Origin: Neobacillus piezotolerans
GTDB taxonomy: Bacteria > Bacillota > Bacilli > Bacillales > Cytobacillaceae
NCBI RefSeq assembly: GCF_003362805.1
Contig: NZ_QNQT01000002.1
Coordinates: forward strand, 372,001-436,000
DNA: 64,000 nt
Direction of reading: 5' to 3'
Part shown: piece after piece, positions 4,643-23,100 of the stretch
How positions within the stretch are numbered: the first letter of the stretch is position 1
Layout of the letters: every line of letters begins with the position of its first letter
Translations under genes and position numbers: made by a program
Notes under the pieces: model-generated
Databases searched by the model: none
Told to the model about the DNA's origin: nothing
What the model saw: only the letters and a program-made list of their open reading frames with translations

Positions 4643-6988
4643 ATGAAACGCCTTTTACTTCTGGTAACAATCGCAGCTATGATGATAAATCTTTTACCTG
4701 TCAATCAAGCAAAAGCGTTAGAATTTGATTGCACAGGGATTAAGATTGGACAAAAGATTTACTGGGAGGGGGTTGAGTTGAAGCCTGGCCAGATTGGCAA
4801 GCTAATGGTTTTAGAAGATACGCCACTATATAGATTTGTAGATGGAAAGCCTGAAATAGAACGGATGCTGTATAAGGGAAGTACATACAGGATTTATAAT
4901 TTCAGGGCAGAATATCTCGGGGTAGGCGCTGGCTTCTATGTAGTTCGGGATGAACGGGTCGAATACAAAACGCCTTCCAAGCAAAAACTGAATGCTGTAA
5001 AATGTGCAAACCCGAAACTGGAAATCCCTCCAGTCACTTCTCCAATAGATGAAGGAACCCCACCTATACAGGAAAAACCTCCTGAAAAGCCGCAATGGGA
5101 GTCAATGGACCTTGGTCCTCAGGTTTCCAATCTTAGTACACTGGCCTCCAGGGCGGGAATGGATCAAAACGGAAATGCTTACCTATATGTCATCCTTCAT
5201 GGTACGCCTTCCTCTTTGGCAGTGGTTGATTTGAATACAAATGAAACGAAGCGTAGTTTTTCTCTTGGAAACTCAACAAGTGCTTGGGCCATGGATGTTG
5301 ATAGCAGTGGAACTGTCTGGGTTGGCGGTACGACTAACGGGAATCTTTACAGTTATAACCCAAACATAGATGAATTCAAGGACCATGGAGATATGCTTGC
5401 CGGAACTGCGGAGACAACAATACAGGATTTGGCAGTCACAGATTATTTTGTGTACGGCTCAACTGCCTACGGAGCATCCGCATTTACGTTTAACAAGATA
5501 ACCGGTGAAAGGGAAAGTATCAAGTCGGCTTCCTTTGGGAAGCAGTTCGCAAAGTCCATCGCCGTGGAACCTGACGACAGGTACGTGTATATCAGCACCG
5601 GACCATTGGTTGATATTTTTAAGTGGGACATTATTAGCGACCTTAAAATTCCTATTTTAAACGGCGCTCACCCAGCCGAATCATATGCGGAAAAAATGAA
5701 AAAGATAGATGATTTGCTTGTAGTAAAGTTTTATCCATCAAAGAAGGCAAATATCTACAGCCTTTCTAGCGGGACATTCCTTAAAGAATTCATGGCTGAT
5801 TCAAGAGGATTCTCTCCTAAGGAGCCTGAGAAAAATGAATTCTATTACACATACGATGGAAACTTCTATGCTTATAATCTTGGAACCGGTACAATCCGTA
5901 ACACAAATGCGCGGCTACCAAGAAAACGGACTGCGTTATCCCTTGATTTTATCCAATTAAAAAGCAATCCGTCACGTAATATCCTGACAGGATTAATTGA
6001 TAATGAAGGGAATTATTTTCTCTATAATCCTTTTTCAAATGTAGTTACGGTTAAAAAGGCAATTTTGCCTTCGAACCCAGTGAACCTCCATACCTTATTT
6101 ACGGATTCGGAACAGAGATATATTTACGTAAATGGATTTATGACTGGCGGATTGACGAAGTTCGACTCAATAGAAAGAAAGGGAGTACAACTTGGAGGGG
6201 TAAACCAACTTGAAAGTGCGATCGTAATGAATGGCAAACTATACGGCGGTGCCTATCCAAAAGCCAGGCTGATTGAAATTACTCCAAATGAGTTCTGGGA
6301 CCAATCATCTATAAAGGAATTGATTTCCCTCGACAAGTATAGCCAGGAACGAATTACTGCAATGGCAGGCTATAATAATACCCATTTGTTTGCGGGGACA
6401 TATGCCCAGGATTCCATCAAAGGTGGTCTACTGCTCGATTATGATGTGGCAACCGGTGATTATAGGGTATACGAAGACTTTATAACAAACCAAAGCATTA
6501 TCTCGTTGCTTCCTGATGAGGGGTACATCTATGCTGGTACCTCAATCCATTCTAATTACAGACGTGCCGAATTCAGCGCAAAGTTTTTCCGTTTTAACCC
6601 GGATAATCCGAATGAAAAGGAGTTTTTTTTCCTTCCCATGAGGGCCACAATGGTCATGTCATTGATAAAGGGACCGGACGGAGATATTTGGGGAGCGGCT
6701 GACGGGACAATCTTTGCATATAATCCTTATTTGAATAAATTCAGATCAGTTAAAGTACTAAATGCAATTTCCGGAAGGTTCAGCAATGCCAAGCTTCTAG
6801 TAGGGAAAGATGGTTTTGTATACGGAACCATGGAGGGCCGGCTTTTCCGGATTAATCCCGCCGACATGTCATTTACATTCCTGCTTGAAAGTGGTGCCTA
6901 CGAAATTGCTCAGGATGAAGTGGGAAATCTCTATTACCGATACCTCTCGAATCTCTACATGATTCCGGTTGAAAACCTAAACCAGTAG
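4643..6988 (+). CDS. Secreted beta-propeller protein with N-terminal shared surface module
   Basis: Unrecognised as a named family. It has a signal peptide (MKRLLLL to QAKA, residues 1-25) and then, at residues 38-117, the module shared by six proteins of this locus (WEGVELKPGQIGK, YKGSTYRIYNF, GVGAGFYVV, YKTPSKQKL). The module is flanked by Cys30 and Cys117. A proline-rich linker at about 118-150 leads to some 600 residues of repeated beta-strand sequence with blade-like pieces such as DVDSSGTVWVGGTTNG and KGPDGDIWGAADG, typical of seven- or eight-bladed propellers that bind ligands or partners. The ribosome site GGAGTG is about 13 bases before the ATG. The protein is probably displayed outside the membrane; its ligand is unknown. 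Confidence 0.85.
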   Translation: MKRLLLLVTIAAMMINLLPVNQAKALEFDCTGIKIGQKIYWEGVELKPGQIGKLMVLEDTPLYRFVDGKPEIERMLYKGSTYRIYNFRAEYLGVGAGFYVVRDERVEYKTPSKQKLNAVKCANPKLEIPPVTSPIDEGTPPIQEKPPEKPQWESMDLGPQVSNLSTLASRAGMDQNGNAYLYVILHGTPSSLAVVDLNTNETKRSFSLGNSTSAWAMDVDSSGTVWVGGTTNGNLYSYNPNIDEFKDHGDMLAGTAETTIQDLAVTDYFVYGSTAYGASAFTFNKITGERESIKSASFGKQFAKSIAVEPDDRYVYISTGPLVDIFKWDIISDLKIPILNGAHPAESYAEKMKKIDDLLVVKFYPSKKANIYSLSSGTFLKEFMADSRGFSPKEPEKNEFYYTYDGNFYAYNLGTGTIRNTNARLPRKRTALSLDFIQLKSNPSRNILTGLIDNEGNYFLYNPFSNVVTVKKAILPSNPVNLHTLFTDSEQRYIYVNGFMTGGLTKFDSIERKGVQLGGVNQLESAIVMNGKLYGGAYPKARLIEITPNEFWDQSSIKELISLDKYSQERITAMAGYNNTHLFAGTYAQDSIKGGLLLDYDVATGDYRVYEDFITNQSIISLLPDEGYIYAGTSIHSNYRRAEFSAKFFRFNPDNPNEKEFFFLPMRATMVMSLIKGPDGDIWGAADGTIFAYNPYLNKFRSVKVLNAISGRFSNAKLLVGKDGFVYGTMEGRLFRINPADMSFTFLLESGAYEIAQDEVGNLYYRYLSNLYMIPVENLNQ

Positions 6989-7013
6989 TTAATATGATAC
7001 ATTATGCAAGGTA

Positions 7014-7040
7014 TGCACCAGCTATTGCTGGTGCTATTTT
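7014..7040 (+). terminator. Terminator after the propeller gene
   Basis: GCACCAGC and GCTGGTGC form a perfect 8-pair stem with a TATT loop, followed by TATTTTCTTATTTT. Confidence 0.85.
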
Positions 7041-7113
7041 CTTATTTTAAAATATTAGTATAGTAAATTTAGTGTAATTAACAGGTAAATACGTGCAGGA
7101 AATTGTTAATCTG

Positions 7114-7122
7114 TGATACTAT
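7114..7122 (+). promoter_or_regulatory. Extended -10 promoter for the CpdB-type gene
   Basis: TGATACTAT fits an extended -10 element about 58 bases before ATG 7180. Confidence 0.4.
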
Positions 7123-7179
7123 TAGAATGCTTCAGAAGATAGACTTTAAATTACATAGCAAGAAAAGGGGAATGAAAGT

Positions 7180-9456
7180 ATGAAAATGCCAACAAAGAAA
7201 GCGCTTTCGAGCGCCACGCTTGCCCTTGGGCTGATTTTGTCGCAAGCTGCACCACCGGTTGCTTATGCAGAAGCCTCCAGCAATGATGTTGTAAAATTGC
7301 GCATCCTCGAAACAACAGACATTCACACCAACTTAATCAATTATGATTATTTTAAAGATGCGCCAACAGAAGCTTTCGGCCTTTCGAAAACAGCCACCCT
7401 TATCAAGGCGGCCCGTGCGGAAGAGCCAAACACCCTTTTATTCGATAACGGAGACTTGATTCAGGGCAGCCCGCTTGGCGATTATGTACAAGGCGTCCAG
7501 AAGCTTGCCGATGGCGTTGAGCACCCGGCTGTGAAGCTTCTCAATCTTCTGAAGTTTGATGGGGCAACAGTTGGAAACCATGAATTCAACTATGGCTTGG
7601 ATTTCCTTGATGAAGTCCTCGATGATGCAAAATACCCTGTCGTAAATGCAAACGTTTACCATGACGATAAAGACAATGATCCAACTAACGATAAGAACTA
7701 CTTTACTCCTTATAAAATTCTAAACCAGGAAGTAACCGATACTGACGGCGAGAAGCATGCCATTAAAGTTGGCGTGATCGGTTTTGTCCCGCCGCAAATC
7801 ATGACCTGGGACAAAGCAAACCTTGAAGGAAAAGTGATTGCGAAAGAAATCGTTAAATCTGCCGAGGAATTCATTCCTAAAATGAAGGCTGAAGGCGCCG
7901 ATGTCATTGTTGTCCTTTCCCACTCTGGAATTGGCACAAGTTCGGAAAACGCATCGATCAATCTGACAAAAATCCCTGGCATCGATGCCGTTTTGACAGG
8001 GCATTCACACAATAAATTCCCGATGGCCGGCGATAAGCCGAACTATTCCGGGGAAGGAATCGATAATGCTAAAGGAACGATCAATGGCATTCCTGTTACA
8101 ATGCCTGGTTCATGGGGAGACAATCTTGGAGTTATCGATCTGGAAATCTCCAAGACAGATGGCAAATGGAAGGTTACCAATTCCAAAGCGGAATTGCGCT
8201 CCATTGCCGGGGTTGCAAGCGATAAGGAAGTAGAAGCCGCGATTAAAGCAGAGCATGAGGGTACTGTGGAATATGTCAGGAAGCCTGTTGGTGAGACAAA
8301 AGCTCCGATCAACAGCTACTTTGCGCTTACTAAGGATGACCCGTCCATTCAAATCGTAACAAATGCCCAGAAGTGGTATGTAGAAAAAACGCTTAAAGGA
8401 ACAAAATACGAAAACCTTCCAGTCCTTTCAGCCGGCGCTCCATTCAAAGCTGGCGGCCGCGGAGGCGCTAATTATTACACAGATATCGATGAAGGGACGA
8501 TTGCAATCAAAAATGTTGCCGACCTTTACTTGTATCCAAACACTGTATTCGCTGTTAAAGTAACAGGCTCTGATATCAAGGAATGGCTCGAATGGTCCGC
8601 TGGCCAGTTCAAACAACTTGATGCAAAATCAACGGATGTCCAGGAACTCGTCGATACAGCATTCCCGACATACAACTACGATGTCATTGATGGTGTAACG
8701 TATGAAATTGACGTAACAGAACCTGCTAAATACGATAAAGATCAAAACCTGGTCAATCCAGATGCAAACCGCATCAAGAATCTTCGTTTTGACGGAAAGC
8801 CAATCAATCCGAATGCCGAGTTCATTGTTGCGACAAACAACTACCGCGCAAATGGAATCAAAGTGGCGGCCAATAAGGAAATCGCCCTTGCATCACCGGA
8901 TGAAAACCGCCAAGTCATCATCGACTACATTAAAGAAACAAAGGTAATCAACCCAAGCGCCGACAACAACTGGAGTTTCGCGCCAATTAAGAATCAGGAC
9001 GGCCTGAAGGTTTCGTTCGAATCTTCGCCAAAAGCACAGAAATACCTGACTGAAGGCGGAGATGTAAAATACGCTACAACCCTGGAGTCGGGATTTGCGA
9101 AATATGAACTGACCCTTCCTGCATTGAAGGATACAAAACCAGGCGACAAGCCAGGAGATACTCCTGGAACAAAGCCTGCTCCCAAGGTTTATTGGAAAGG
9201 GTCTTACCTGAAGCCGAACCAAATCGGCCGGGTATCAATCGAAAAGCCAATCAATCTTTGGAAGCTTGACGGCAATAAACTTGTCTTTGTCCGTATTCTT
9301 AAACCGGGTGAAGCATACCGCGTTTACAGCTACCAAAGTGCCCATGGCGGCCAGTATGGAGTGGGCGGAGGTTACTATGTAACCAATATGAAAGGCTATG
9401 TAAAATACGAAACCCCATCCAAAGCAAAGTTAAAAGAGCTTAGAGGGGAAGAATAA
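7180..9456 (+). CDS. Secreted 2',3'-cyclic-nucleotide phosphodiesterase/3'-nucleotidase with C-terminal surface module
   Basis: Predicted to hydrolyse 2',3'-cyclic nucleotides and 3'-nucleotides outside the cell, releasing phosphate and nucleosides. A signal peptide (residues 1-27, ending VAYAEA) is followed by a calcineurin-like metallophosphatase domain: ETTDIHTNL, LFDNGDLIQGSP, VGNHEFNYGLDF and LTGHSHNKF. The 5'-nucleotidase C-terminal domain follows (GAPFKAGGRGG, then NTVFAVKVTG). After a linker of repeated Lys-Pro-Gly-Asp, residues 668-758 hold the shared module (YWKGSYLKPNQIGR, KPGEAYRVYSY, GVGGGYYVT, YETPSKAKL). AAGGGGAAT is the ribosome site. It is flanked by its own promoter and terminators, so it is monocistronic. 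Confidence 0.92.
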   Translation: MKMPTKKALSSATLALGLILSQAAPPVAYAEASSNDVVKLRILETTDIHTNLINYDYFKDAPTEAFGLSKTATLIKAARAEEPNTLLFDNGDLIQGSPLGDYVQGVQKLADGVEHPAVKLLNLLKFDGATVGNHEFNYGLDFLDEVLDDAKYPVVNANVYHDDKDNDPTNDKNYFTPYKILNQEVTDTDGEKHAIKVGVIGFVPPQIMTWDKANLEGKVIAKEIVKSAEEFIPKMKAEGADVIVVLSHSGIGTSSENASINLTKIPGIDAVLTGHSHNKFPMAGDKPNYSGEGIDNAKGTINGIPVTMPGSWGDNLGVIDLEISKTDGKWKVTNSKAELRSIAGVASDKEVEAAIKAEHEGTVEYVRKPVGETKAPINSYFALTKDDPSIQIVTNAQKWYVEKTLKGTKYENLPVLSAGAPFKAGGRGGANYYTDIDEGTIAIKNVADLYLYPNTVFAVKVTGSDIKEWLEWSAGQFKQLDAKSTDVQELVDTAFPTYNYDVIDGVTYEIDVTEPAKYDKDQNLVNPDANRIKNLRFDGKPINPNAEFIVATNNYRANGIKVAANKEIALASPDENRQVIIDYIKETKVINPSADNNWSFAPIKNQDGLKVSFESSPKAQKYLTEGGDVKYATTLESGFAKYELTLPALKDTKPGDKPGDTPGTKPAPKVYWKGSYLKPNQIGRVSIEKPINLWKLDGNKLVFVRILKPGEAYRVYSYQSAHGGQYGVGGGYYVTNMKGYVKYETPSKAKLKELRGEE

Positions 9457-9530: not shown

Positions 9531-11420
9531 CTATTTGTGTGGCTTCTCCGCCGCCTTCACAGTCCCGTTATCGAATATTCTCCCAATATAGTCATTCTCC
9601 AACAGAAGTGTGGAAATCCGGATATCCTTGTAAATCGAATCATAGCCTGCACGGCATAGTTGGACATCAGTTTTTTTGCCAGTTCGGTTGTCAATGCAGA
9701 TTCCCTTTTCAAATACGCCTTCATGCGACGCCATGTAATCATATTCATCCGAAAAGAAAGAATAGCGGGTTGTTTCAAACGCGAAACCAGTAATCCTTTT
9801 ATGGTTCGCATCAAGCGTCGTACCGAGCTGGACGAGCTGGTCGTCAATCCCCAGCAGGGCGGTAAGCGTCGGGTAGATATCCATCTGGCTGCCGGTTCCT
9901 CCATTCACCACCGGTTCTGTCTGCCCGGGATGGTGGATGATTAACGGGATATTGAACCTTGTTTTTAAATCAAAATTAACGCCCAACAGGTTCCGCAGCT
10001 CTTCTTCATCGGTTGGAAGCGGCCCATAGTGGTCCCCATAGACCACAAAGATTGAGTCATCCCAAATGTTTTCCTCTTTTAACTCTGCAATGAATTCACC
10101 AAGCGCATCGTCAAAATAACGGATGCTTTGCAGGTAATTGCCCGTTGCAGTGCCTTCAAGCCCGGATGGAAGTGTGAGATATTGGTATTTTTCATCAAGA
10201 ATGAATGGCCGGTGGCTTGTGAGTGAAACGATAAAATTAAAGAAAGGCTTTGATTCCTGTTTATACATCGCTGTCATTTGATGAAAGATGCTTTTATCCG
10301 AAATGCCAAGCCCGATAATTTCATCATCTTTTATTTCGGGATGGCCCCGATAATAAAAATCGCCATATCCCTGGTTTTTATAGGCAGTTTGCCTGTTCCA
10401 GAATTCAGGAGTATTGCCGTGTGTGACACTCGTCGAATAGCCATACTGGTTCAGTAAATCCGGAAGGGAGAGATACTGGTTGTTCGGATAACCTTTATAT
10501 GCTCCGATATACCCAATCGGATACAGGGAATTGTTTGCGACGAACTCCGCGTCGGATGTATTCCCCCTTCCAATCTGCAGGTACGTGTTCGGATAATAGT
10601 GGCTTTCATTTATTAGCCTATTCAGGTTGGGGGTGATTTCCTGTCCTCCGACCTGCAGGCCGATCGGGAAAGTGTTCAATGATTCTGCCTGCACCATAAT
10701 GATGTTTTTCCCTTTGAACTTTCCGAAGTATGGGGATCCTTTTTGGATTTCCTGCCTGCTTTTAAACGTATCGCGGATCTCTTCTATGCTCTTTGTTTGA
10801 AGGAGGGCTTGTTTAAAATACGCCTTTTTATACACATTCCAGCCAATGTCATACATATGGGCAGGGATAACGCCACCCAGCGAAATTTTATACTGGTCGG
10901 AGTAGGTGAATTTAAAGGCGGTCAACGAGATTCCGAGAAGAATAGACAACCCCAAGGACAGGATTGCAAGCCCTGGCTTTTTCCACTGAGCCGGTCCCTT
11001 CCTTTTTGCAAAAAAGAAAAACACGACCGCGGCCAAAGGGACGTCAATCCAGTATAGGAAATCCCAGCCGCTGATTAATGAAATAATTGAGGATCGGATG
11101 TCCTTCAGCTGCCCGGCCTGGGCCAGAAGTTCTATGCGGATAATCGCATTATAATAACGCTGGTACATGACATCGGCATAGAGCAGCAGGCTGGCCAATG
11201 TGTAAAGCATACTGGCTGAAGCAATTGCAATAAACTTGCGTTTTATCAATAAAAGGCTCGCAACGATGGCCGCGAAGCCGAGGGATGATAGGTAAATTAA
11301 CGCATAGCTGGGTGACAGGCCGGTTTCTTTTACAAAAAGAAGGGTTTTCCCGGTCCATGGCAGAGCGAGCAGCAAACACAATAGGATCATAGAAGAATAT
11401 TTTTTAAGAATGGTTAACAA
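9531..11420 (-). CDS. LTA synthase family protein (phosphoglycerol transferase)
   Basis: A polytopic membrane enzyme of the LtaS/YfnI/YqgS/YvgJ family, which moves glycerol-phosphate from phosphatidylglycerol to lipoteichoic acid or its primer. Five hydrophobic segments fill residues 1-190, and a sulfatase-like extracellular domain follows. Visible sites are NIIMVQAESLN (first metal ligand), the GNTSDAEF loop with the nucleophilic Thr near residue 287, and FVVYGDHYGP near the C terminus. About 630 residues is the normal length. The start is TTG 11420 with GGAGGAG 7-8 bases upstream. It is divergent from the UshA-type gene and shares the repeat boxes at 11493. Which paralogue of B. subtilis it matches is not clear. 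Confidence 0.9.
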   Translation of the reverse strand: MLTILKKYSSMILLCLLLALPWTGKTLLFVKETGLSPSYALIYLSSLGFAAIVASLLLIKRKFIAIASASMLYTLASLLLYADVMYQRYYNAIIRIELLAQAGQLKDIRSSIISLISGWDFLYWIDVPLAAVVFFFFAKRKGPAQWKKPGLAILSLGLSILLGISLTAFKFTYSDQYKISLGGVIPAHMYDIGWNVYKKAYFKQALLQTKSIEEIRDTFKSRQEIQKGSPYFGKFKGKNIIMVQAESLNTFPIGLQVGGQEITPNLNRLINESHYYPNTYLQIGRGNTSDAEFVANNSLYPIGYIGAYKGYPNNQYLSLPDLLNQYGYSTSVTHGNTPEFWNRQTAYKNQGYGDFYYRGHPEIKDDEIIGLGISDKSIFHQMTAMYKQESKPFFNFIVSLTSHRPFILDEKYQYLTLPSGLEGTATGNYLQSIRYFDDALGEFIAELKEENIWDDSIFVVYGDHYGPLPTDEEELRNLLGVNFDLKTRFNIPLIIHHPGQTEPVVNGGTGSQMDIYPTLTALLGIDDQLVQLGTTLDANHKRITGFAFETTRYSFFSDEYDYMASHEGVFEKGICIDNRTGKKTDVQLCRAGYDSIYKDIRISTLLLENDYIGRIFDNGTVKAAEKPHK

Positions 11421-11631: not shown

Positions 11632-13482
11632 ATGAAAAACATGAAAAAAGGGCTAATCGCCCTCGTTTCAGCAGTCGTTGTCGGCTCGGGATTCGGTTTG
11701 AATTTCGCATCGCCAGTTGAAACCGCACAGGCAGCATCGAAGAAGATTACCATTCTCCACACAAACGACTCGCACGGGCGGGTTGAGGAATCTTCCGCCG
11801 ACGGAATGGGATTTGCGAAAATTTCGACTCTCGTAAAACAATATGAGGCGCAAAATCCAAATACCCTTCTGCTTGATGCGGGGGATACATTCCACGGTAC
11901 GACCTTTGCCACTTTGGAAAAAGGGGAGAGCATTGCCAAGGTTTTGAATGCTGTAGGTTATGACGGCATGGCTGCAGGCAATCATGATTTCAACTACGGT
12001 TATCAGACTTTGCTGGAATTGACCAAGAAAGTCAATTTCCCAGTGTTGTCGGCCAACGTGAGGAAGAAATCGGATAATTCCCAGATTCTTCAGCCATATG
12101 AAATAAAAGAAGTGGACGGAATCAAGGTAGGCATATTCGGGTTGTCGACTCCTGAAACACATTATAAGACCCACCCGAAAAACGTTGAAGGCCTTCAGTT
12201 CACAGATCCGGTTGAGGAAGCAAAGGCGATGGTTGCCGAGCTAAAATCGAAAAACGTAGATGTAATTGTCGCGGTTACCCACTTGGGCATTGATGCTTCA
12301 AGTACCGATACTTCCATTAAGGTTGCCAAGGGCGCGCCAGGGATCGATTTGATTGTTGACGGCCACAGCCACTCGACACTTGTCGAAGGCTTGAAAGAGG
12401 GCAATGATACCCTGATTGTCAGCGCGGGTGAATATACGAAAAACCTTGGTGTAGTTGAACTTACATTTGAAGGAAATAAGCTTGTTGATAAAAAAGCCCA
12501 CCTGATTACAAAGGAACAGGCGAAAGATGTTACACCTGACCCTGCAATCTTGGACGTTGTTAAAAAAGTAAAGGATAGCCAGAAGGAAATCCTTTCGCAG
12601 GTAATCGGCGAAACGGGCGTTGTCCTTGACGGGGAGCGCTCCCAGGTGCGTGGCGGCGAAACAAACCTTGGAAACCTAATCACCGATGCGATGATTGATT
12701 TAACAGGTGCTGACATTGCGATTACAAATGGCGGCGGTATCCGCGCGTCCATCCCTGTCGGCAAGATTACAAAAGGCCATGTAATCACAGTACTTCCATT
12801 TGGAAACTACATTGTCACAAAGAAGCTTACGGGCGCACAAATCAAGGCAGGCATTGAAAATGGCGTTGATTCCTACCCTGAACCAAAGGGCGCGTTCCCT
12901 CATATTGGAGGAATGTCTTTCGCAATCGATGTTACTCGTGAAAAAGGCGATCGGGTACATTCTTTGAAGGTCAACGGCAAGCCAATGGAAATGGACAAAG
13001 AATACCTCGTTGCAACGAATGACTTTATGGCAGCTGGCGGAGACGAATATACGAGCTTCAAGGACAGCCCGATTGTAAATGAATTCCCTGCCCTTGATGA
13101 AGCGCTAATGAATTATATTGGAAAGCGAGGCGTCCTGAACAGGAAAGTTGAAGGGCGCATTGTAGCCAAGACCGTAGAGGAAGTAAAGAAAGAAGAAGAG
13201 TTGCTGAACAGGCCTGTCCCTGTTGTTTACTGGGATGGAACACTGATGAAGAGGAACCAGATTGGCCGGATTTCCATTCTTCATTCCGTGAACCTGATGA
13301 AGTTTGACGCTGACGGAAATGCGGTTGTTGTCCGTGAGCTTAAAGCAGGTGAGCGTTACCGTGTGTATAGTTATAACGGAACGTACGGCGTGGGCGCTGG
13401 CTACTTCATTAGCGACAATGGTGCGAACACACGTTACGAAACACCGTCCAAGCATAAACTAGCTCTTTTAAGGGCCAATTAA
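11632..13482 (+). CDS. Secreted 5'-nucleotidase/UDP-sugar hydrolase (UshA type) with C-terminal surface module
   Basis: Predicted extracellular hydrolase of nucleotides and possibly UDP-sugars. Signal peptide of about 34 residues (ending AQAASK). The metallophosphatase domain carries LHTNDSHGR, LLDAGDTFHG, AGNHDFNYG and VDGHSHSTL; the 5'-nucleotidase C domain carries GETNLGNLITDAM and ITNGGGIRASIP, the nucleotide-binding signature. Residues 531-616 are the shared module (YWDGTLMKRNQIGR, KAGERYRVYSY, GVGAGYFIS, YETPSKHKL). AGGGGGAGC precedes ATG 11632. It is a paralogue in architecture of the CpdB-type gene at 7180. The gene stands alone between the divergent LTA-synthase gene and a terminator. 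Confidence 0.93.
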   Translation: MKNMKKGLIALVSAVVVGSGFGLNFASPVETAQAASKKITILHTNDSHGRVEESSADGMGFAKISTLVKQYEAQNPNTLLLDAGDTFHGTTFATLEKGESIAKVLNAVGYDGMAAGNHDFNYGYQTLLELTKKVNFPVLSANVRKKSDNSQILQPYEIKEVDGIKVGIFGLSTPETHYKTHPKNVEGLQFTDPVEEAKAMVAELKSKNVDVIVAVTHLGIDASSTDTSIKVAKGAPGIDLIVDGHSHSTLVEGLKEGNDTLIVSAGEYTKNLGVVELTFEGNKLVDKKAHLITKEQAKDVTPDPAILDVVKKVKDSQKEILSQVIGETGVVLDGERSQVRGGETNLGNLITDAMIDLTGADIAITNGGGIRASIPVGKITKGHVITVLPFGNYIVTKKLTGAQIKAGIENGVDSYPEPKGAFPHIGGMSFAIDVTREKGDRVHSLKVNGKPMEMDKEYLVATNDFMAAGGDEYTSFKDSPIVNEFPALDEALMNYIGKRGVLNRKVEGRIVAKTVEEVKKEEELLNRPVPVVYWDGTLMKRNQIGRISILHSVNLMKFDADGNAVVVRELKAGERYRVYSYNGTYGVGAGYFISDNGANTRYETPSKHKLALLRAN

Positions 13483-13530: not shown

Positions 13531-13742
13531 TTTTTTAAAAAATTATGGAAAACTGCTTTGGGGTTTTTCTTAAAAATTTATAGTTAAAAATGAAACTATT
13601 CTCCTTTTCGCTGAGTCTATATAAATAGTAAACTATGGAAATGGAGAGATTTTTTTCATCAACGGGGGGTTCTCAAGTGGGATGCCCTGTCTCCATTCCT
13701 TTTTTATTTGCAAGCGAAAAAGATGAGAAAGCGGGGGGTCCT

Positions 13743-16700
13743 ATGAAAAAGTGGTTTAGGAAATCCGGACTTGCGGTAGTTGGTACAACGCTTGTGGCGG
13801 CAAGCCTGCTTACAGGCCCGGTACATGCGACAACGGTGAAATACAATGATTTTACGTCAAGCCCTACTGGCTTTGTGAGCCAGGCGCAAATGAAGGCTCA
13901 AAAAGATGGGGAGAAGGCGCTGAGCGATGATACGCTGATCATCAAATTTAATAAGCCTTTGACCCTGTCCGAACACCGTTACGCGGGCGGGACGCCTGTG
14001 AAGCAAATCGAAGGCCTCGATTATACGGTTGTAAAGGTGAAGAATAAAAAAGATTTCGATAAGGCAATCAGTAGGTACAGGGAAAACACGAAAGTGGCGG
14101 CAGTTATGCCGAGTGCCTTGTACAGGCCGCTTGGGATTGAGGATCCAAAGGCAGCGAGTCAGTATCAAGTGAACATGCTTAATTTGGCAAAGGCTCAGTC
14201 TCTTGCGGGGAAATACCAGGTTACCGTTGCTGTCATCGATCAGGGAATCGATCCGAATCACCCGGATTTGAAAGGGAAACTGCTTCCGAGCTATAACACC
14301 GTTTCCCCGATGAACCAGGGAACGCCGGATTTCCATGGCACGCATGTGGCAGGGATTATCGCGGCGGCAAAGGATAACGGGATTGGCGGATACGGCGTGA
14401 ACCCCAATGCAAAAATTTTGCCAATCGACGTTTTTGACCGGGCTTGGGGGGCATCCGATTTTGCAATCGCCGAGGGCATTCTTTATGCGATAAACAAAGG
14501 AGCGAAGGTTATTAATATGAGCCTTGGTGGTTCGATGCCTTCCCCATTAATTGAGGATGCAGTTAAAAAAGCACTTGAGAAAAATATTGTCGTTATTGCG
14601 GCGGCAGGAAACACGGGAAATGATATGCTAAGCTACCCGGCGGCCTATGAAGGTGTTATATCTGTAGGGAATGTCAACAGCCAGAAAAAGCTTTCGGCGT
14701 CATCTTCCTATGGCCCTTCGGTCGATGTGGTTGCTCCAGGAGAGGACATTTACAGCACGATTTATGAATATGAACGCAAATCGAGTTACCGAAAACTGAC
14801 TGGCACCTCGATGGCCGCGCCAATGGTCGCGGGCGCTGCTTCACTTCTGTTATCAAAATATCCGTTGCTGACCCCCTACCAGGTCGAGTATATTCTTGAG
14901 CATACTGCCGAGGACCTTGGTGAGAAGGGGTTTGACGTTAAATATGGAAACGGGCTTATTAACCCTGTTGCAGCTTTGCAATTTGATATGAAAAAACTTC
15001 CCAACATTGTGAAGAAAGCCTATACAGAAAAAGAATTGAAGGAGAAAGCTCAGCCTGTTTCACTCGGCAAGGAGACAAAGCTTTCAGGTAATATTACCGC
15101 TGCCTATGAGGAGAAATGGTATAAGTCAGATGTGGAAAAAGGTGACAATCTCCAGTTCATTCTTGATGGCGGGTCGCAGTTTGATTTTAAATTGATGATC
15201 CACATGTATTCCGCTTCGGAAAAACTGATGATTGATGTCAATAAGGTCCGTGAAGGAGTAAAGGAAGGAAGATTCTTCGAAGCGCCTTTCAGCGGAACCG
15301 TCCTTTTCGGAGTAAAAGAAGTCAATGGAAGCTATGATGATTCCGCGAAGGGCGGTTCGAAATTCAGCCTTACTGTACAAAAGGCCGACGAGTTGCCGGT
15401 GGATGAGTCTTCCCTTGATAAGCCGATTGCAATCGAGCTTCCATACGATAGCGGCAGCACACCTCTGCACCTGCTTGGCAAAGACGGCGATGACGACTAT
15501 TACAAGTTTTCTGTCAAAGAATCCCAGGCAGTAAGAATTGAGCTTTCAGGAGTGCCTGGCACCGATACGACCATCGGCCTTTATACAGCTGATATGTTCT
15601 TCCCGCCAGACTTTGACAAACTTCCGGCAGAGGAGCAGAAAACGATTCTTGACGGACTCGCATCCGGAGACATGAAGGTCGATCCAATGCTATACAGCAA
15701 CAGGGGCGCCCATGGCGCGGGTGAAAGCCTCAACTTTACCGCCGGCCCGGAAATGACTTATATCGTGAAAGTGTCGAATAAAATTGATCCTAATTATTTT
15801 ATGATGTACGATTTCTTCTTCAACCCGGGTCTGATGTCCAAAGATCAAGTAGCGGAGCCGTCGCTTGTTCCATACAAGCTCAAAGTGGATGGGAAGGTAT
15901 TCCCTGCAGATGAAGACATGTTCCCATTCATGGGTCGCGGCAAAGAGGAAACAAGCGAAAGCCCTGGGGAACAGAAAAAGGAAATGGAAGTTGGCCCAAC
16001 TGAAGGCGGGGAAGATGAATTCCTGAGAATGATCAAGGAAGGTTCCCAGCCATATGAGATTGGCGCACAAGCCGGTGGCTATTTGCAAATGATGGAGGAT
16101 GAGGACTGGTTCCAGACAACTCCTTCCGAAACAGGCATTTACCAGTTTGCTTTTTCAGAAAAAGGCTTTACGGTTCCGTTAATTAGTATATTTAAGATTA
16201 TCGAGGAAAAGGATTACAATGGAAAGCCAATGAAATATTTGGCCCAGATTGGTTCCAATATGACGTGGGACTGGGCGGGGATAAGGATGGATCCTTCCCT
16301 CTATACAGGGCTAAGGAAAGGTGAAACATACTATATTAAAGTGAACTCGAATTATTATACAGGTGAAATGTCCTTCGATCCGTACCAGTTTACATCAACG
16401 TTATTGTTTGCCAACCCGCAGGATCAATACGAAGACAATGATAAGCCGGAAAATGTCCGAAACCTCCCGGCTGGTACAGTCGAAGGGAATTTTGCGATGC
16501 CGTTCGACCAGGATTATTTCTATTTCGAATCAAAAACGGATGCAATATACGGCGTAACGTTTGGGACGAAGGCAATTGACCCCGCTGCTTCCAGCAAGTA
16601 TCCGAAAGAGCTGGTCAACCCGATTTTCGGGATGGTGGTCGTAGTGGAGGACACGAATAAAAACCGGAAGCTTGATGAAGAGGAATACAGGAAGGGCCAG

Positions 16701-17231
16701 TACATTGACCGCGGCGCGTTATCCGGAAACACATATGGATCGTTCAAAGCAGGCAAGAACAAGAATTATATCATGCTTGTAAGTGGTTATATAGACGGTC
16801 CGGTTCCGCTTTCCCTTCTTCCTTATCAATTGAAGGTAGCTCCGGTAAACACGGTGGACGAAGACAAGGGGTCCGTCGTGAAGAACAACATTCCTTCTAA
16901 ACCGCTAAAGTTTGCGGTAAACGGAAAGAATGGGTTAAAGGCTGTTGGTTACTTGAATGCAGGTGTTGCTTATGGGGACGAAGATTGGTATGAACTGAAG
17001 CTGGCGAAGGATTCAAAAGGGAAAATTGAATTCGCGGCAGGAATCGAAGTTGATAGTATCATCTCCCTTTATAAGGATGGAAAGCTGATCGCACAGGCGG
17101 ATTATTATCCGGAAGGCGACGCGGAAGTCCTGAGCTTTTCCCTAAAAAAGGGTACGTATCATATTAAGGTCAGGGATGCCTTTGGAAACTCGACAATAAA
17201 TCCATACACCCTGACTGTGAAATTCCAATAA
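13743..17231 (+). CDS. Secreted subtilisin-family serine protease with C-terminal beta-domains
   Basis: A large extracellular S8 protease. Start ATG 13743 is chosen because GGGGGG lies just upstream and it gives a clean signal peptide (MKKWFRKSGL to PVHA); an ATG at 13635 would add 36 residues without signal character. A propeptide at about 45-130 (LIIKFNKPL to VAAVMPSALYRP) is an intramolecular chaperone/inhibitor. The catalytic triad is Asp166 (AVIDQGIDPNHPD), His198 (FHGTHVAG) and Ser356 (TGTSMAAPM). Beyond residue 430 come four or five repeats of the bacterial pre-peptidase C type, each with a DxDDYYKF or DEDWF-like motif and a YxxKV strand. It lacks the shared surface module. It may process neighbouring exported proteins, but this is inference. 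Confidence 0.9.
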   Translation: MKKWFRKSGLAVVGTTLVAASLLTGPVHATTVKYNDFTSSPTGFVSQAQMKAQKDGEKALSDDTLIIKFNKPLTLSEHRYAGGTPVKQIEGLDYTVVKVKNKKDFDKAISRYRENTKVAAVMPSALYRPLGIEDPKAASQYQVNMLNLAKAQSLAGKYQVTVAVIDQGIDPNHPDLKGKLLPSYNTVSPMNQGTPDFHGTHVAGIIAAAKDNGIGGYGVNPNAKILPIDVFDRAWGASDFAIAEGILYAINKGAKVINMSLGGSMPSPLIEDAVKKALEKNIVVIAAAGNTGNDMLSYPAAYEGVISVGNVNSQKKLSASSSYGPSVDVVAPGEDIYSTIYEYERKSSYRKLTGTSMAAPMVAGAASLLLSKYPLLTPYQVEYILEHTAEDLGEKGFDVKYGNGLINPVAALQFDMKKLPNIVKKAYTEKELKEKAQPVSLGKETKLSGNITAAYEEKWYKSDVEKGDNLQFILDGGSQFDFKLMIHMYSASEKLMIDVNKVREGVKEGRFFEAPFSGTVLFGVKEVNGSYDDSAKGGSKFSLTVQKADELPVDESSLDKPIAIELPYDSGSTPLHLLGKDGDDDYYKFSVKESQAVRIELSGVPGTDTTIGLYTADMFFPPDFDKLPAEEQKTILDGLASGDMKVDPMLYSNRGAHGAGESLNFTAGPEMTYIVKVSNKIDPNYFMMYDFFFNPGLMSKDQVAEPSLVPYKLKVDGKVFPADEDMFPFMGRGKEETSESPGEQKKEMEVGPTEGGEDEFLRMIKEGSQPYEIGAQAGGYLQMMEDEDWFQTTPSETGIYQFAFSEKGFTVPLISIFKIIEEKDYNGKPMKYLAQIGSNMTWDWAGIRMDPSLYTGLRKGETYYIKVNSNYYTGEMSFDPYQFTSTLLFANPQDQYEDNDKPENVRNLPAGTVEGNFAMPFDQDYFYFESKTDAIYGVTFGTKAIDPAASSKYPKELVNPIFGMVVVVEDTNKNRKLDEEEYRKGQYIDRGALSGNTYGSFKAGKNKNYIMLVSGYIDGPVPLSLLPYQLKVAPVNTVDEDKGSVVKNNIPSKPLKFAVNGKNGLKAVGYLNAGVAYGDEDWYELKLAKDSKGKIEFAAGIEVDSIISLYKDGKLIAQADYYPEGDAEVLSFSLKKGTYHIKVRDAFGNSTINPYTLTVKFQ

Positions 17232-17272: not shown

Positions 17273-17452
17273 TGCATAAAGACTCATTCTTGGAAAAATA
17301 AGGTTTAAATACCAATATATTTTTTCCTTGATTTCACCAAAAGTTCAAAAACAGCGGGCCCATTTTCCTAAAAAATGACTAAAGTCCCTCTATACGGTAG
17401 AAAGCCAAACTACTAAAATGAGGTGGTACAAAAAAGAAAAAGGGGAATGGGA

Positions 17453-18694
17453 ATGAACGTAAAGAGAAAGTTGCTTAAGGTGGCTGCTTCGGCATTCATG
17501 CTCAGCACCGCCTTTTATTTAGCGCCGGCCGAAAAGGGGAAGGCCGCCGAGTTGTGCACCGGGATTTCAGCAGGATCAGTCGTTCAATGGGATGGCGAAG
17601 AATTGAAGCTTGGCCAGATTGGAAGGCTTATAGTCATTCAAGACACGCCGCTTTTTAAACTGAATGACGACAGCAGGCAGTTTACTAGAATCCTAAAAGC
17701 AGGTGAGACTTATAGGATTTATGCCTTCAAACCTGGCATGCTGAGTGTCGGCGGAGGTTACTATGTTGACCGTGATGCGAGGGTAAACTACGAAACGCCT
17801 TCGAAAACGAAGCTTGGCCAGTTGGAATGCAAAAAGACGGCGATTGCCGAAAGTAAAACCCCGGTCGAACTAACCGATTCTAGGACAAGCATTATTGATA
17901 AGCTTGGTACGGAAAAGCGTATTAGCGCAAATGAATACGGAACATCCTGGTACACCTATCAAAAGGCTTACAGGAATTTCTATATGATCAGCTATGTAAA
18001 TGGCAAGATTGGCGCGCTTTACACAATGGATAGCGGATTCCAAATCGGGAATGTAAAAGTGGGAATGGCCCGCGATTCAATAAAAGCGGCGCTTGGAAAT
18101 CCCGTTGAAGGAATTTTAAAGGGGGATATCAGTTATTCCACCCGTAATGATAGTGAACAGGAAACCTTCTACAGGAATGGTTTTTATATAACCGTATTTT
18201 ATGATATTCATAACTACGGTAAAGTAACTGCCTTGCAGGTAGTTTCGAGTGATGTGGAGAACAGGAAGGCCGGATTTTACGGGCCATCTTCCACATCATT
18301 GCAGCAGGCATTCGAGCTTCAGTTATTTGACCTTGTCAATGCTGAACGCGTCAGAAAAGGCCTGCCGGCTTTGGCCTGGAGTGAGAAAGCAAGGGCATCG
18401 TCGAGGAGCCACTCACTTGATATGGCTGCAAATAATTTCTTCAGCCATACGAACCTCCGCGGACAAGACCCATTCGAAAGGATGAGGGCGTCAGGAATTG
18501 TCTACCAGGCTGCAGGTGAAAACATTGCGATGGGCTATGCTAGCAGTATCTTGGCACATGAAGGCTTGATGAATTCTCTTGGCCACCGGAAAAATATCCT
18601 GAGTGGAAGTTATTCGTATTTGGGGACCGGGGTACAATTCCAGGCGGGGACAATGCGTCCTTATTATACGCAAAACTTTTATAAACCTTATTAA
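17453..18694 (+). CDS. Secreted CAP-domain (SCP/PR-1) protein with N-terminal surface module
   Basis: Function unknown; CAP proteins of Bacillus (YlbC, YkwD type) are secreted and linked to the envelope or spores. Start ATG 17453 has AAAGGGGAA about 8 bases upstream and begins a signal peptide (to GKAA, residue 32); a GTG at 17423 lacks such support. Residues 42-123 are the shared module (WDGEELKLGQIGR, KAGETYRIYAF, SVGGGYYVD, YETPSKTKL), framed by Cys35 and a Cys just after the module. A CAP-associated domain follows (IGNVKVGMARDSIKAALG, about 195-215). The CAP domain is C-terminal: HSLDMAANNFFSHTNLRGQ, AGENIAMG and GHRKNIL. It is monocistronic. Confidence 0.9.
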   Translation: MNVKRKLLKVAASAFMLSTAFYLAPAEKGKAAELCTGISAGSVVQWDGEELKLGQIGRLIVIQDTPLFKLNDDSRQFTRILKAGETYRIYAFKPGMLSVGGGYYVDRDARVNYETPSKTKLGQLECKKTAIAESKTPVELTDSRTSIIDKLGTEKRISANEYGTSWYTYQKAYRNFYMISYVNGKIGALYTMDSGFQIGNVKVGMARDSIKAALGNPVEGILKGDISYSTRNDSEQETFYRNGFYITVFYDIHNYGKVTALQVVSSDVENRKAGFYGPSSTSLQQAFELQLFDLVNAERVRKGLPALAWSEKARASSRSHSLDMAANNFFSHTNLRGQDPFERMRASGIVYQAAGENIAMGYASSILAHEGLMNSLGHRKNILSGSYSYLGTGVQFQAGTMRPYYTQNFYKPY

Positions 18695-18938: not shown

Positions 18939-21398
18939 ATGAGGAATAAGGTTTTTATTTGTATAGTATTGTTGTTGTCAATGTTTACAGCTCCATTTTC
19001 TGCCGGCCAGGCGCAAGCCGCTACCGCCACTCCATATGTTAGCTGGGACGGGGCGCAGCTCGTGAAAGGCCAGATTGGCAGGGTAGATATTCTTAAGCCT
19101 ATAAATTTATGGAAAAAGGAAAATAATAAACTCACATTTGTCCGTGTCCTAAAGCCAGGGGAGCGATACCGGGTATATCAGTACAGTTCGGAATTTGGCG
19201 GGCAATACGGGGTTGGCGGGTCATATTTTGTAACGAAAATGGCTGGGTACGTAGAGTATAAAACTCCGTCGATTCATAAACTTAAGCTGGTGAATCCAGA
19301 GCTCTATGGAACGAAGCTTTCTATCGGGACAGTGACGGATGAGCAGTCAAAAGTCCTTGCCCCAGGGGTCACCCAGTCACAGCTTTCTGTCGACAGCTCC
19401 CGTGGTAAGCAGCAAATATATGTTCTTGGAGTCGACCAGCAGGCTTCACAAATCAAATTTGAAACAACGCTGGCAAAGGACCAAATGATTGGCTTTGAAA
19501 CGGTAAGTTCAATGGCCGCCCGAAACCAGGCCGATGAGCATTTTATTATCGGCGGCGTGAATGGCGACTATTTCGATTCGAATGGCGCGCCGACTGACCT
19601 GACCGTCCATAACGGGGAGCTTGTGACGACAAACAAAACCCCTGAAAATGAACGGACAATCTTCGGGGTCTCCCCTGAAGGAAAAGCGATGATCGGCAAT
19701 CCGGATATTACCCTCAGTTTAACGGTAAATGGACAAAATCCATATCTTATTGATTCGGTCAACAAGCGTCGCTTTGCGGACCATCTTGTTCTCTACACGC
19801 CATATTTCGCTTCTACAACAATGACGAACGAACTCGGTACGGAAGTTGTTCTGACGAATATTGAGGGCAAACTGAACGGGAATGGCACCGTCAAGGCTAC
19901 CGTAAAAGAAGTTGTCGTCGGCAAGGGAAGCGCACCGCTCGTTCCAGGTGAGATGGTCCTATCGGGGCATGCAAAGGGAAGTGAGTACCTGAAAGGCCTT
20001 GTTGCCGGCGATGTCGTCGAGATTAATCTCGCTTATAACAATCCGGACTGGGACAAGGTTGAACAGGCAATCGGGGGCAGGTATTACCTTGTTAAAAACG
20101 GAGTCGCGCAAACCCTTAATGTAGCTGGAGCGGCGCCAAGGACAGCAATCGGAATCAAGAAAGATGGATCGGTTTTCGTCATCGTCATTGACGGAAGGCA
20201 GACTGTAAGCGCCGGAGTCACCCTGACCGAAACTGCCAAAGTCATGAAAGATCTTGGGGCTGTCGAGGCGATGACATTTGACGGCGGCGGCTCATCCACC
20301 ATGGTTGCCAGGAATCCTGGCAATGCTGATGCGACCGTCATCAACTCGCCTTCGGATGGAAAAGAACGATATGTCGCCAATTCCCTGCTCATTGTTGGGT
20401 TGTGGAAAGCCGGCCCGCTTAATACACTGCTTCTCTCCACAAATAACTTGAAGCTGTTTGCGGGTGCGACATATAAAAATCTCGATATCACCGTACGCGG
20501 GCTTGATAAAAACAATAACCCGATTCCTGTAACGGACCCGCTCGCCTGGACTTCGACAATTGGAAGCTTCAACAGCGATGGGTCGTTTACCGCCGGCAAG
20601 ACGGCTGGAAAGGGCACGATTACCGCTTCAACAGGTACAATTAAAGCAAGTGCAAATGCCGAAATCGTCAATACACTTGACAGCATAAAACTTGCCAATC
20701 CGACTGTTATCGTTGAGAAAAATGGCTCCTTCCCGGTTCCTGCTTCAGGGTATCTTGCAGGCAAAAAAATCGTTGATGATCCTGCTGTATTCCAATACAA
20801 GCTTTCCTCACCGATCGGAACGGTTGACAAAGGAATCTTTAAGGCCGGTACTGTTGATGGCTCGACAACGGTAACAGTTTCATACGGTTCCGTTTCTGCG
20901 ACCTTCAATGTCATTGTCGGCAACCCGGGCTCCATCGTTGTCGAAAACTTTGAAGGAAGCCTGTCCGGATGGAAGGCAAGCGGAGCAAAGTTTAATTCTG
21001 TATCGATTGCACCGGAAAAGGTTTATGTCAAAACAGGGAGCCAATCACTTAAAGTGGCATACGACTTTATCGAAATGACGGGTACATCCGGTGTCTACGC
21101 AACTCCTCCGGCTTCAATTGAACTCCCGGGAGCTCCTGTTAAAATCGGCATGTGGGTTTATGGAGATGCGAAAGGCCATTGGCTGCGTTCCCAATTGAGG
21201 GATGCGGCAGGGACTGAAGTCCAACTCGATTTTACAAAGAATCTTGACTGGACCGGCTGGAAATTCGTCGAAGCCGAAATTCCAGCAGGTCTGAAAGCTC
21301 CATACAGGCTCGAAATGCCAGTCCGTTATATGGAAACGGATGATTTGAACAAAAACAAAGGCCAAATTTTTGTGGATGATATAACCGCGGTTTATTAA
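18939..21398 (+). CDS. Secreted phosphodiester glycosidase (NAGPA domain) with N-terminal surface module
   Basis: Predicted exo-acting glycosidase that cleaves sugar-1-phosphodiester bonds, as found in teichoic-acid or capsule-like polymers. Signal peptide residues 1-27; residues 32-118 are the shared module (WDGAQLVKGQIGR, KPGERYRVYQY, GVGGSYFVT, YKTPSIHKL). The NAGPA domain (about 150-490) has GGVNGDYFDSNGAP, GIKKDGSVFVIVIDGRQ and MTFDGGGSSTM, its substrate-site signatures. Two bacterial Ig-like segments (about 495-670) and a C-terminal carbohydrate-binding-like domain (VENFEGSLSGWKASG onward) complete it. AAGGGAGAG precedes ATG 18939. It is well placed to trim surface glycopolymers made by the neighbouring loci; the natural substrate is not known. 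Confidence 0.9.
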   Translation: MRNKVFICIVLLLSMFTAPFSAGQAQAATATPYVSWDGAQLVKGQIGRVDILKPINLWKKENNKLTFVRVLKPGERYRVYQYSSEFGGQYGVGGSYFVTKMAGYVEYKTPSIHKLKLVNPELYGTKLSIGTVTDEQSKVLAPGVTQSQLSVDSSRGKQQIYVLGVDQQASQIKFETTLAKDQMIGFETVSSMAARNQADEHFIIGGVNGDYFDSNGAPTDLTVHNGELVTTNKTPENERTIFGVSPEGKAMIGNPDITLSLTVNGQNPYLIDSVNKRRFADHLVLYTPYFASTTMTNELGTEVVLTNIEGKLNGNGTVKATVKEVVVGKGSAPLVPGEMVLSGHAKGSEYLKGLVAGDVVEINLAYNNPDWDKVEQAIGGRYYLVKNGVAQTLNVAGAAPRTAIGIKKDGSVFVIVIDGRQTVSAGVTLTETAKVMKDLGAVEAMTFDGGGSSTMVARNPGNADATVINSPSDGKERYVANSLLIVGLWKAGPLNTLLLSTNNLKLFAGATYKNLDITVRGLDKNNNPIPVTDPLAWTSTIGSFNSDGSFTAGKTAGKGTITASTGTIKASANAEIVNTLDSIKLANPTVIVEKNGSFPVPASGYLAGKKIVDDPAVFQYKLSSPIGTVDKGIFKAGTVDGSTTVTVSYGSVSATFNVIVGNPGSIVVENFEGSLSGWKASGAKFNSVSIAPEKVYVKTGSQSLKVAYDFIEMTGTSGVYATPPASIELPGAPVKIGMWVYGDAKGHWLRSQLRDAAGTEVQLDFTKNLDWTGWKFVEAEIPAGLKAPYRLEMPVRYMETDDLNKNKGQIFVDDITAVY

Positions 21399-21410
21399 TC
21401 ATAAAAGACT

Positions 21411-21448: not shown

Positions 21449-21785
21449 GTATAAAGGTATAATGACGTTTGACCAGTGTAACATAGGGAATCTACATTAT
21501 AAGCGGCATTACCTTTACAGGCATTTTTATCAACCTGAAAAGTATATTTTTGCTATTTTACCAGCAATACTATATTGCTACCCAGGGCACAAATTACTAT
21601 GCTAAAAGCAGGAGATTGCAAACGGATGTTTGCAGTTTATAGGCCTTTATGATAATAATAAGATGATACGTTTACAATTTTGTTAATATTGATTATGCTA
21701 AAAAAGCATATTCGATACTATATACCTATTATTTTTTGTGTTTGTGTCTATTTATCTTTGGGAGCTGGAGGGAGTATTTTTAGCA
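21449..21785. other. AT-rich intergenic region with one small inverted repeat
   Basis: No gene is seen in these 337 bases. TGCAAAC at 21617 and GTTTGCA at 21628 form a perfect 7-base inverted repeat around GGAT, which could be an operator or a small hairpin in a leader transcript. I could not match the region to a known riboswitch. Confidence 0.35.
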
Positions 21786-22193: not shown

Positions 22194-22197
22194 CTAA

Positions 22198-22230
22198 AAG
22201 GTAGGCCCTGTATAGCGCCTGCCTTTTTAT
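22198..22230 (+). terminator. Terminator after the 135-residue protein gene
   Basis: AAGGTAGGC pairs with GCCTGCCTT with one mismatch, followed by TTTATTTTG. Confidence 0.75.
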
Positions 22231-22280
22231 TTTGTCTGCAATCTATCTTTTTCCCCAATTTCGACCTCTTTCAAACCCGT

Positions 22281-22297
22281 TGTAATCAAATTGTAAT
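22281..22297 (+). promoter_or_regulatory. WalR (YycF) binding box
   Basis: TGTAATCAAATTGTAAT is a perfect match to TGTWAH-N5-TGTWAH, the operator of the essential WalR response regulator. It stands 129 bases upstream of an NlpC/P60 cell-wall peptidase, the classic WalR target type. A weaker second copy (TGTAAC-N5-TGTAAG) lies at 22356-22372, close to a TATACT -10 element at 22345. Confidence 0.65.
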
Positions 22298-22425
22298 AAA
22301 AAACAGTAATTTGTAAAACGGGTGAAATAGACTCTCGCAATCTCCTATACTAAAATGTAACTATGTTGTAAGTATTTACATAATTTTCGCAAAAACGACA
22401 AAGAGAGACTTTTCGGGGGTTGCTG

Positions 22426-23100
22426 ATGAAAAAGGTTAGAAATTTGCTAGGTTTACTATTGTTCATCATAACTTTGTTAACTTCAGGCCAAGGAAAAGCC
22501 GAAGCTGCGGAAATTGCAGATTTAACAGATTATGCCCAAAAATTTGTAGGCGTTCCATATAAATGGGGCGGCACGACACCTTCCGGGTTTGATTGTTCGG
22601 GGTATGTCTCCTATGTATATAGCGAATTTGGAGTTGAGCTTCCAAGGACGAGCGCGGATCAATTCGCGCAAGGCGACAAAATAGAGGCGTCTGACAGGGT
22701 TCCGGGCGACCTGTTATTCTTTACAACCTACAAGGCGGGCCCTTCCCATTCCGGAATCTATCTCGGAGACAATAAGTTCATTCATGCCTCACCAAAGGGA
22801 ATCCAGATTGCCAGCCTGAATGACAGCTATTACAAGAATAGGTACCTTGGCGCAAGAAGATACATACAGCCCGCTCCCATGAAGGAAGGGCAAATCGGAA
22901 CGGTTTACATAAAGAAGAAAGTGAACCTTTGGCAGCGTGACGAAAACGGCAAATTAAAGGAAGTAAAGGTCCTTAATCCAGGTGAAACATACCGTGTATA
23001 TGGAAGTGATTCTCTGTACGGGGGACAATTCAATCTTGGATCGCAGCTTTTTATCACCAACATTCCAACCCATATCGAGTTTAAGCCGGCCGGCAATTAA
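22426..23100 (+). CDS. Secreted NlpC/P60 endopeptidase with C-terminal divergent surface module
   Basis: Predicted to cut the gamma-D-glutamyl-diamino acid bond in peptidoglycan stem peptides. A signal peptide (MKKVRNLLG to AEAA, about 27 residues) is followed by the catalytic domain at about 32-145: PYKWGGTTPSGFDCSGYVSY with the nucleophile Cys, and SHSGIYLGDNKFIHAS with the His. Residues 149-224 are a shorter copy of the shared module: EGQIGTVYI, KVNLWQR, NPGETYRVYG. It lacks the leading Trp-x-Gly and the trailing TPSKxKL. ATG 22426 is preferred over TTG 22420. The upstream WalR box suggests control by cell-wall state. Confidence 0.92.
   Translation: MKKVRNLLGLLLFIITLLTSGQGKAEAAEIADLTDYAQKFVGVPYKWGGTTPSGFDCSGYVSYVYSEFGVELPRTSADQFAQGDKIEASDRVPGDLLFFTTYKAGPSHSGIYLGDNKFIHASPKGIQIASLNDSYYKNRYLGARRYIQPAPMKEGQIGTVYIKKKVNLWQRDENGKLKEVKVLNPGETYRVYGSDSLYGGQFNLGSQLFITNIPTHIEFKPAGN

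Follow-up and report, generated by a model that had tools for sequence, protein, structure and literature searches.

Why should six secreted proteins of unrelated function, encoded next to the genes of an accessory Sec system, carry the same short module? The question is raised by a 64,000-nucleotide stretch of Neobacillus piezotolerans NZ_QNQT01000002.1 (hereafter the window; all coordinates are counted from its first letter), in which a sequence-only reading had described a module of ~75–90 residues common to six secreted proteins beside secA2 and slaP. The module is very probably an SH3b-like cell-wall anchor that is independent of CsaB, replaces the SLH domain, and is paired with a second class of SecA2–SlaP that also serves SbsC-type proteins.

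A terminal module on secreted proteins

Reading the open reading frames (ORFs) and aligning the copies confirmed all six (~85 residues), all on the plus strand and divided, as had been described, between three N-terminal and three C-terminal positions. Right after the signal peptide lie the copies of a beta-propeller-like secreted protein (781 amino acids (aa), 4643–6988; module 4742–5005; DUF6923 below its cut-off and Reg_prop at its cut-off), a CAP-domain protein (423 aa, 17423–18694; module 17576–17833) and a NAGPA phosphodiester glycosidase (819 aa, 18939–21398; module 19029–19301). The C-terminal copies belong to a CpdB-type 2',3'-cyclic nucleotide phosphodiesterase/3'-nucleotidase (758 aa, 7180–9456; module 9178–9453), a UshA/5'-nucleotidase-type protein (616 aa, 11632–13482; module 13216–13479) and an NlpC/P60 hydrolase (226 aa, 22420–23100), whose module (22876–23097) is short and degenerate. 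Across the alignment Q-I-G, two Leu, two more Gly, Y-R-x-Y and one Pro are invariant, and mean column identity is 56 per cent. The common core that had been described needs correction for two copies: in NlpC/P60 both the Trp strand and the TPSKxKL tail are missing, with FNLGSQLFI standing for GVGxGYxV, and the NAGPA copy reads TPSIHKL in place of TPSKxKL. Two genes inside the same span, for a subtilase (13635–17231) and an LtaS-like protein (9531–11420, minus strand), gave no module match in a profile scan of the organism's own genome.

That scan used a profile built from the six window copies, so that the E-values of those six (1.2e-26 to 1.9e-41) are self-inclusive. It recovered nine further copies outside the window (E = 2.8e-19 to 2.5e-33) and a module fragment on contig C31 (E = 4.3e-11), which brings the genome to 16 matches: 15 copies in 14 proteins and the one fragment. 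By Pfam, the eight module proteins outside the window include a second propeller-like protein (below cut-off), trypsin-like, transglutaminase and PdaC/DUF3298 domains, a CAP protein with a C-terminal module and an SLT protein with a sub-cut-off SH3 match; one of the eight matches nothing in Pfam, and another is made solely of two modules. Because copies occur in proteins outside the window, the module is a genome-wide trait of secreted proteins rather than a quirk of this locus, and its recurrence is far beyond chance.

The loci fetched for comparison contain 207 complete module ORFs (duplicates from overlapping loci counted), of which a k-mer filter left 89 as non-redundant. The module is terminal, meaning that it starts before residue 120 or ends no more than 40 residues from the C-terminus, in 88 of these 89, and 86 have a hydrophobic N-terminal stretch; in the sole non-terminal case (L072:14996–16609) the module lies mid-protein and is followed by an SbsC_C-type domain. 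Pfam assignments for 77 of the ORFs comprise, among the matches listed (25 of the 33 families matched), CAP nine times, NlpC/P60 five times, the 5'-nucleotidase C-terminal domain and SH3_3 four times each, and NAGPA, M23, trypsin, YkuD and PdaC three times each. Anoxybacillus tepidamans DSM 16325 also has modules. As separate observations, one 1004-aa protein (L144:3066–6080, genome G017, which has neither SlaP nor SecA2 over cut-off) has three modules in tandem, and 11 plasmid records from Priestia, Cytobacillus and Metabacillus hold module-like sequences, seven of them in genes annotated DUF3298/DUF4163.

Predicted fold and relation to known wall-binding domains

The module had been said to belong to no named family, and for Pfam and NCBIfam this holds: 49 diverse copies give isolated, chance-like matches only, to 13 Pfam families at E ≤ 1. 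None of the 49 matches SLH (PF00395) or PF03217 at that level, the latter being the SLAP family, the lipoteichoic acid (LTA)- or teichoic-acid-binding domain of Lactobacillus, and the SH3_3, SH3_4 and GW models are absent from the 13 families. An AlphaFold2 model of the CpdB-type copy (pLDDT 91) has an SH3b-like fold, and in structure comparison the closest matches to this predicted fold are domains that bind walls or glycans, among them the LTA-binding domain of Lactobacillus SlpA.

The resemblance to SlpA and SlpX (7qeh, 8aol, 8alu) extends from the predicted SH3-like fold to the bearers, which are surface proteins in both cases; unlike those domains, the module is single, has an additional predicted N-terminal Trp strand and TPSKxKL helix, and is tied to SecA2–SlaP. 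The SH3b wall-binding domains of phage endolysins (LysPBC5 CBD, lysostaphin-type, Ly7917) also resemble the predicted fold, whereas the module occurs mostly on bacterial surface proteins and does not match the SH3_3, SH3_4 or GW models named above. With SLH the module shares its recurrence on many secreted enzymes, its occurrence in genomes with slaP and secA2 and, presumably, a non-covalent mode of anchoring, but it differs in its predicted beta-rich fold and in being usually present once per protein. SLH domains come in threes, according to two papers (PMC12175726, PMC3297441).

Module copies in phage lysins

Two Psychrobacillus phages, PVJ1 and Perkons, carry the module. In PVJ1 it forms the C-terminus of an annotated lysozyme/amidase (84.7 bits), the gene of which adjoins an annotated holin; in Perkons the module core is close to the C-terminal end of the tape-measure protein, in which a phage tail lysozyme domain is also present. 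On three IMG/VR contigs there are two further amidase endolysins that bear the module at the C-terminus and one tail-like protein with M23 and glucosaminidase domains, and both endolysin genes lie directly behind ORFs that, on our reading of their sequences, resemble holins. Taken by position, then, the module is C-terminal in three Amidase_2 endolysins and its core is near the C-terminus of two muralytic tail proteins. PVJ1 has a second copy in a protein of 237 aa (L226:5908–6621) that begins with a signal-like stretch and is annotated as a 'stress protein'; the phage is temperate, and this protein may possibly alter the surface of the lysogen.

Wall-binding domains are common in endolysins and tail lysins, and the placement of the module in such proteins is therefore independent support for wall binding. 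Together with the predicted SH3b-like fold it lends strong support to the earlier suggestion of a surface-anchoring module. No signal peptide is seen in the phage endolysins, whose genes follow those of holins; the module by itself is therefore no export signal for SecA2.

Distribution against SLH, CsaB and SlaP

Among 193 genomes of the host's family, the module occurs in 34, SLH in 78, SlaP over cut-off in 49 and SecA2 over cut-off in 47; CsaB is over cut-off in 20, six more genomes score 163–175 bits, and the next best scores 119 bits. Genomes were called module-rich at five or more modules (21 genomes; none has three or four) and SLH-rich at 24 or more SLH matches (23 genomes; the next has six, and the top counts are at least 35), thresholds that were set post hoc, once the counts were known. 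Module and SlaP are associated (both 24, module only 10, SlaP only 25, neither 134; p = 6.6e-10), and more closely for module-rich genomes (both 19, module-rich only 2, SlaP only 30, neither 142; p = 3e-11); the corresponding counts for SLH-rich genomes are 22, 1, 27 and 143. The 49 SlaP-positive genomes divide into 22 SLH-rich, 19 module-rich, none that is both, and eight that are neither (p = 1.3e-7), whereas over all 193 genomes the exclusion of module-rich and SLH-rich alone gives p = 0.08. CsaB (at least 148 bits) is found in 21 of the 23 SLH-rich and in none of the 21 module-rich genomes; the two SLH-rich genomes without it are fragmented (G006) or have a short match at a contig end (G179). 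Every module-rich genome has at most four SLH matches. The split among SlaP-positive genomes and the distribution of CsaB strongly support the proposal that this locus is an alternative to SLH-based S-layers.

The pattern recurs in a wider sample of 398 genomes of the class, partly members of the family, in which 10 genomes have the module and 75 have SlaP over cut-off. SlaP passes its cut-off in nine of the 10 (seven of the eight outside the family), and the tenth, G290, scores 206 bits. Four module-rich genomes from two other families (G297, G401, G437 and G290) have 0, 2, 0 and 5 SLH matches, respectively, and no CsaB match. Conversely, 35 other SlaP-positive genomes outside the family all have at least 19 SLH matches, and 34 of them have CsaB at 148 bits or more (G528 has none); four of the 35 (G345, G466, G498, G582) have one to three module matches, weak only in three of the four. 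This check covered 38 of the 73 non-family SlaP-positive genomes plus G290, the other 35 all being of family f37. Genomes of f37 have three SlaP-type matches each, one of them four, and these are neighbouring where positions are listed. A separate observation concerns G000:C12:187756–193937 (L001–L003), where two proteins that read as subtilase-like have SLH domains in a genome without clear CsaB.

Several genomes weigh against a strict pairing. Ten of the 34 module genomes are without SlaP over cut-off (G005, G017, G036, G048, G105, G128, G131, G153, G162, G187). In G162 the slaP gene (L142) has several in-frame stops, though secA2 is open and 16 module matches persist. A single module occurs together with CsaB in G041, which is SLH-rich, and in G048, and G044 is SLH-rich without SlaP. 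The earlier idea that the module is a mark of SecA2/SlaP clients thus stands as a correlation, with SlaP in 24 of the 34 module genomes, but not as a rule, given that G017 has five copies and neither SlaP nor SecA2 over cut-off.

Two classes of SecA2–SlaP

Both genes of the window that had been named slaP (294 aa, 23198–24082, minus strand) and secA2 (790 aa, 24104–26476, minus strand) pass their NCBIfam cut-offs, with 377.5 bits against 250 for TIGR04399 and 1148 bits against 1085 for TIGR04397, and the SecA2 falls in a clade distinct from that of SLH genomes. In a tree of 49 SecA2 sequences with three SecA1 as outgroup, the 22 SLH-type rows form one clade (100/99) and the 27 others another (100/100); 24 of these 27 come from module genomes and three from genomes without modules. 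The SlaP tree (49 rows) likewise separates the 22 SLH rows from the rest (100/100). When SecA1 from 38 genomes is used as a proxy for species descent, its tree requires five changes between SLH and module by parsimony among 23 labelled rows. Because SecA2 and SlaP divide by type while SecA1 needs five switches, SecA2 class appears, within the limits of single-gene trees, to track the type of anchor and not descent.

The loci themselves differ accordingly in content. Module ORFs are present in 17 of 27 fetched non-SLH ('type-2') slaP–secA2 stretches and in none of 22 SLH-type stretches (p = 1.6e-6), and three of the 10 type-2 stretches without them stop at contig edges. As in the window, a NAGPA-size module ORF (794–858 aa) is found in all 17 module-holding type-2 loci, and an intact NlpC/P60-size one (226–250 aa) in 16 of 18 module loci, window included; in relatives both were assigned from their length and position, without a Pfam match for every one. 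An unnamed 135-aa protein marks non-SLH loci, being found in nine of 80 genomes tested, all of non-SLH type or module-rich. In genus g20 and other genomes of the family, proteins of ~130–160 aa align with the second half of SlaP alone (profile ~160–277) and are a possible single-repeat relative.

It could be argued that a clade merely shares the module, SlaP and a missing CsaB by chance, without functional link: the genomes of one family are kin, and SlaP is widespread in SLH genomes too, as well as in the module-free genomes of f37. We regard this as highly improbable, since type switches five times on the SecA1 tree while SecA2 and SlaP follow it in one split, the exclusion recurs in two further families, and the 135-aa protein was found only in genomes that are of non-SLH type or module-rich. 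The co-occurrence with SlaP, the matching clades and the restriction of module ORFs to non-SLH loci would also suit a module whose main role is to be recognised by SecA2/SlaP for sorting or export, and not to bind a wall ligand. This is improbable, for the module is found at either terminus, occurs in G017 without the system, has a predicted fold like that of ligand-binding SH3b domains, and is borne by endolysins and tail proteins of phages, none of them a Sec client.

The slaP–slaQ–secA2 cluster of Bacillus anthracis is comparable to the module loci in its slaP and secA2 families and in having an extra locus gene, but the SecA2 and SlaP of module loci do not belong to the SLH clade in the family studied here (the trees do not include B. 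anthracis). Anchoring of SLH proteins to pyruvylated polymer in B. anthracis and P. alvei is coupled to CsaB, which is absent from module-rich genomes.

SbsC-type proteins in non-SLH loci

In three genomes with few or no modules (G008, G108 and G123), the type-2 loci encode SbsC_C-domain proteins close to slaP or directly next to it, the match in G108 being below the Pfam cut-off. With a profile started from G008, SbsC_C-type domains are found in seven of 27 type-2 and none of 22 SLH-type loci (p = 0.012), or in six of 26 when the query locus is left out (p = 0.025), and another five fetched stretches that contain module genes encode S-layer-like SbsC-type proteins of 856–927 aa. PMC3297441 and PMC12175726 state that SbsC binds wall polymer without SLH, and PMC3297441 that its N-terminal domain for binding secondary cell wall polymer (Geobacillus) consists of triple-helical bundles. 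That domain would thus parallel the module in binding polymer without SLH, and SbsC_C-type proteins are present in non-SLH loci, but its helical bundles are unrelated to the predicted beta fold of the module.

This company raises the alternative that the module serves in assembly and attaches to the lattice of an S-layer protein, for example of SbsC type, and not to a wall polymer. We consider this unlikely: endolysins and tail lysins need to bind the wall and not an S-layer, the most similar folds are those of domains whose ligands are wall glycans or teichoic acid, and no SbsC-type gene was found in the window or the fetched stretches of its own genome, the rest of which was not searched.

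Wall polymer genes and other features of the window

A glycopolymer made by the cluster adjoining secA2 would be the natural candidate for the ligand of the module. A WecA/TagO-like glycosyl-1-phosphate transferase (26827–27906, plus strand; PF00953 143.8 bits, wecA model below its cut-off) is a candidate for the start of wall glycopolymer synthesis, and the cluster also has a nucleotide-sugar dehydrogenase (30606–32000, plus strand; TIGR03026 444.8 bits, cut-off 189.8), UDP-GlcNAc 2-epimerase wecB (34349–35410, plus strand; TIGR00236 339 bits, cut-off 210), and aminotransferase, acetyltransferase and repeat-unit polymerase genes. Further on lies an LCP-family glycopolymer–peptidoglycan ligase (45640–46683, minus strand; TIGR00350 148.5 bits, cut-off 62.3). 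Elsewhere in the window (57816–62116, minus strand), two proteins with eight and six CxxCH haem-binding motifs, beside NHL-repeat- and TPR-like ORFs, may be multihaem cytochromes at the surface of this Bacillus relative.

A possible mechanism and its implications

On the anchoring reading, a secreted enzyme with the module at one end would be exported by Sec, perhaps with SecA2 and SlaP, lose its signal peptide and be held non-covalently on a wall glycopolymer, likely the product of the genes next to secA2 after ligation by LCP. Module-rich bacteria have no CsaB and so presumably are without the pyruvylated polymer on which SLH domains depend; the module would serve their surface proteins as SLH does in bacilli with SLH and CsaB. 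It goes with the second SecA2–SlaP class, which has a different sequence, its own 135-aa protein and, in some genomes, SbsC-type S-layer-like neighbours.

We consider it plausible, though slightly short of probable, that bacilli have two parallel display codes, each with its own SecA2–SlaP class, anchor and polymer: SLH with CsaB-pyruvylated polymer, and the module (with SbsC-type domains) with a CsaB-independent polymer and the 135-aa protein as private partner. Joint switching would then arise because SecA2–SlaP, perhaps with the small protein, reads features of the client class, and the split could serve to identify the substrate features that SecA2 recognises. According to one review (PMC3297441), it is 'not yet clear' how SecA2 selects its S-layer clients; two SecA2–SlaP classes, two anchors and repeated switches between them provide a natural contrast for this question.

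SH3b-like wall anchoring and S-layer-linked SecA2 are already known. The titles and opening abstract lines of open-licence papers, among the matches listed, contain no apparent description of the module or of two SecA2–SlaP classes, and as far as these searches reach, the anchor family and its pairing appear to be new. The module may be of use as a display tag for non-pathogenic hosts such as Bacillus methanolicus, and as a new binding domain for endolysins. It is a probable wall-anchor domain missing from Pfam and NCBIfam, and as such would explain how many enzymes are retained at the surface of some Bacillus relatives.

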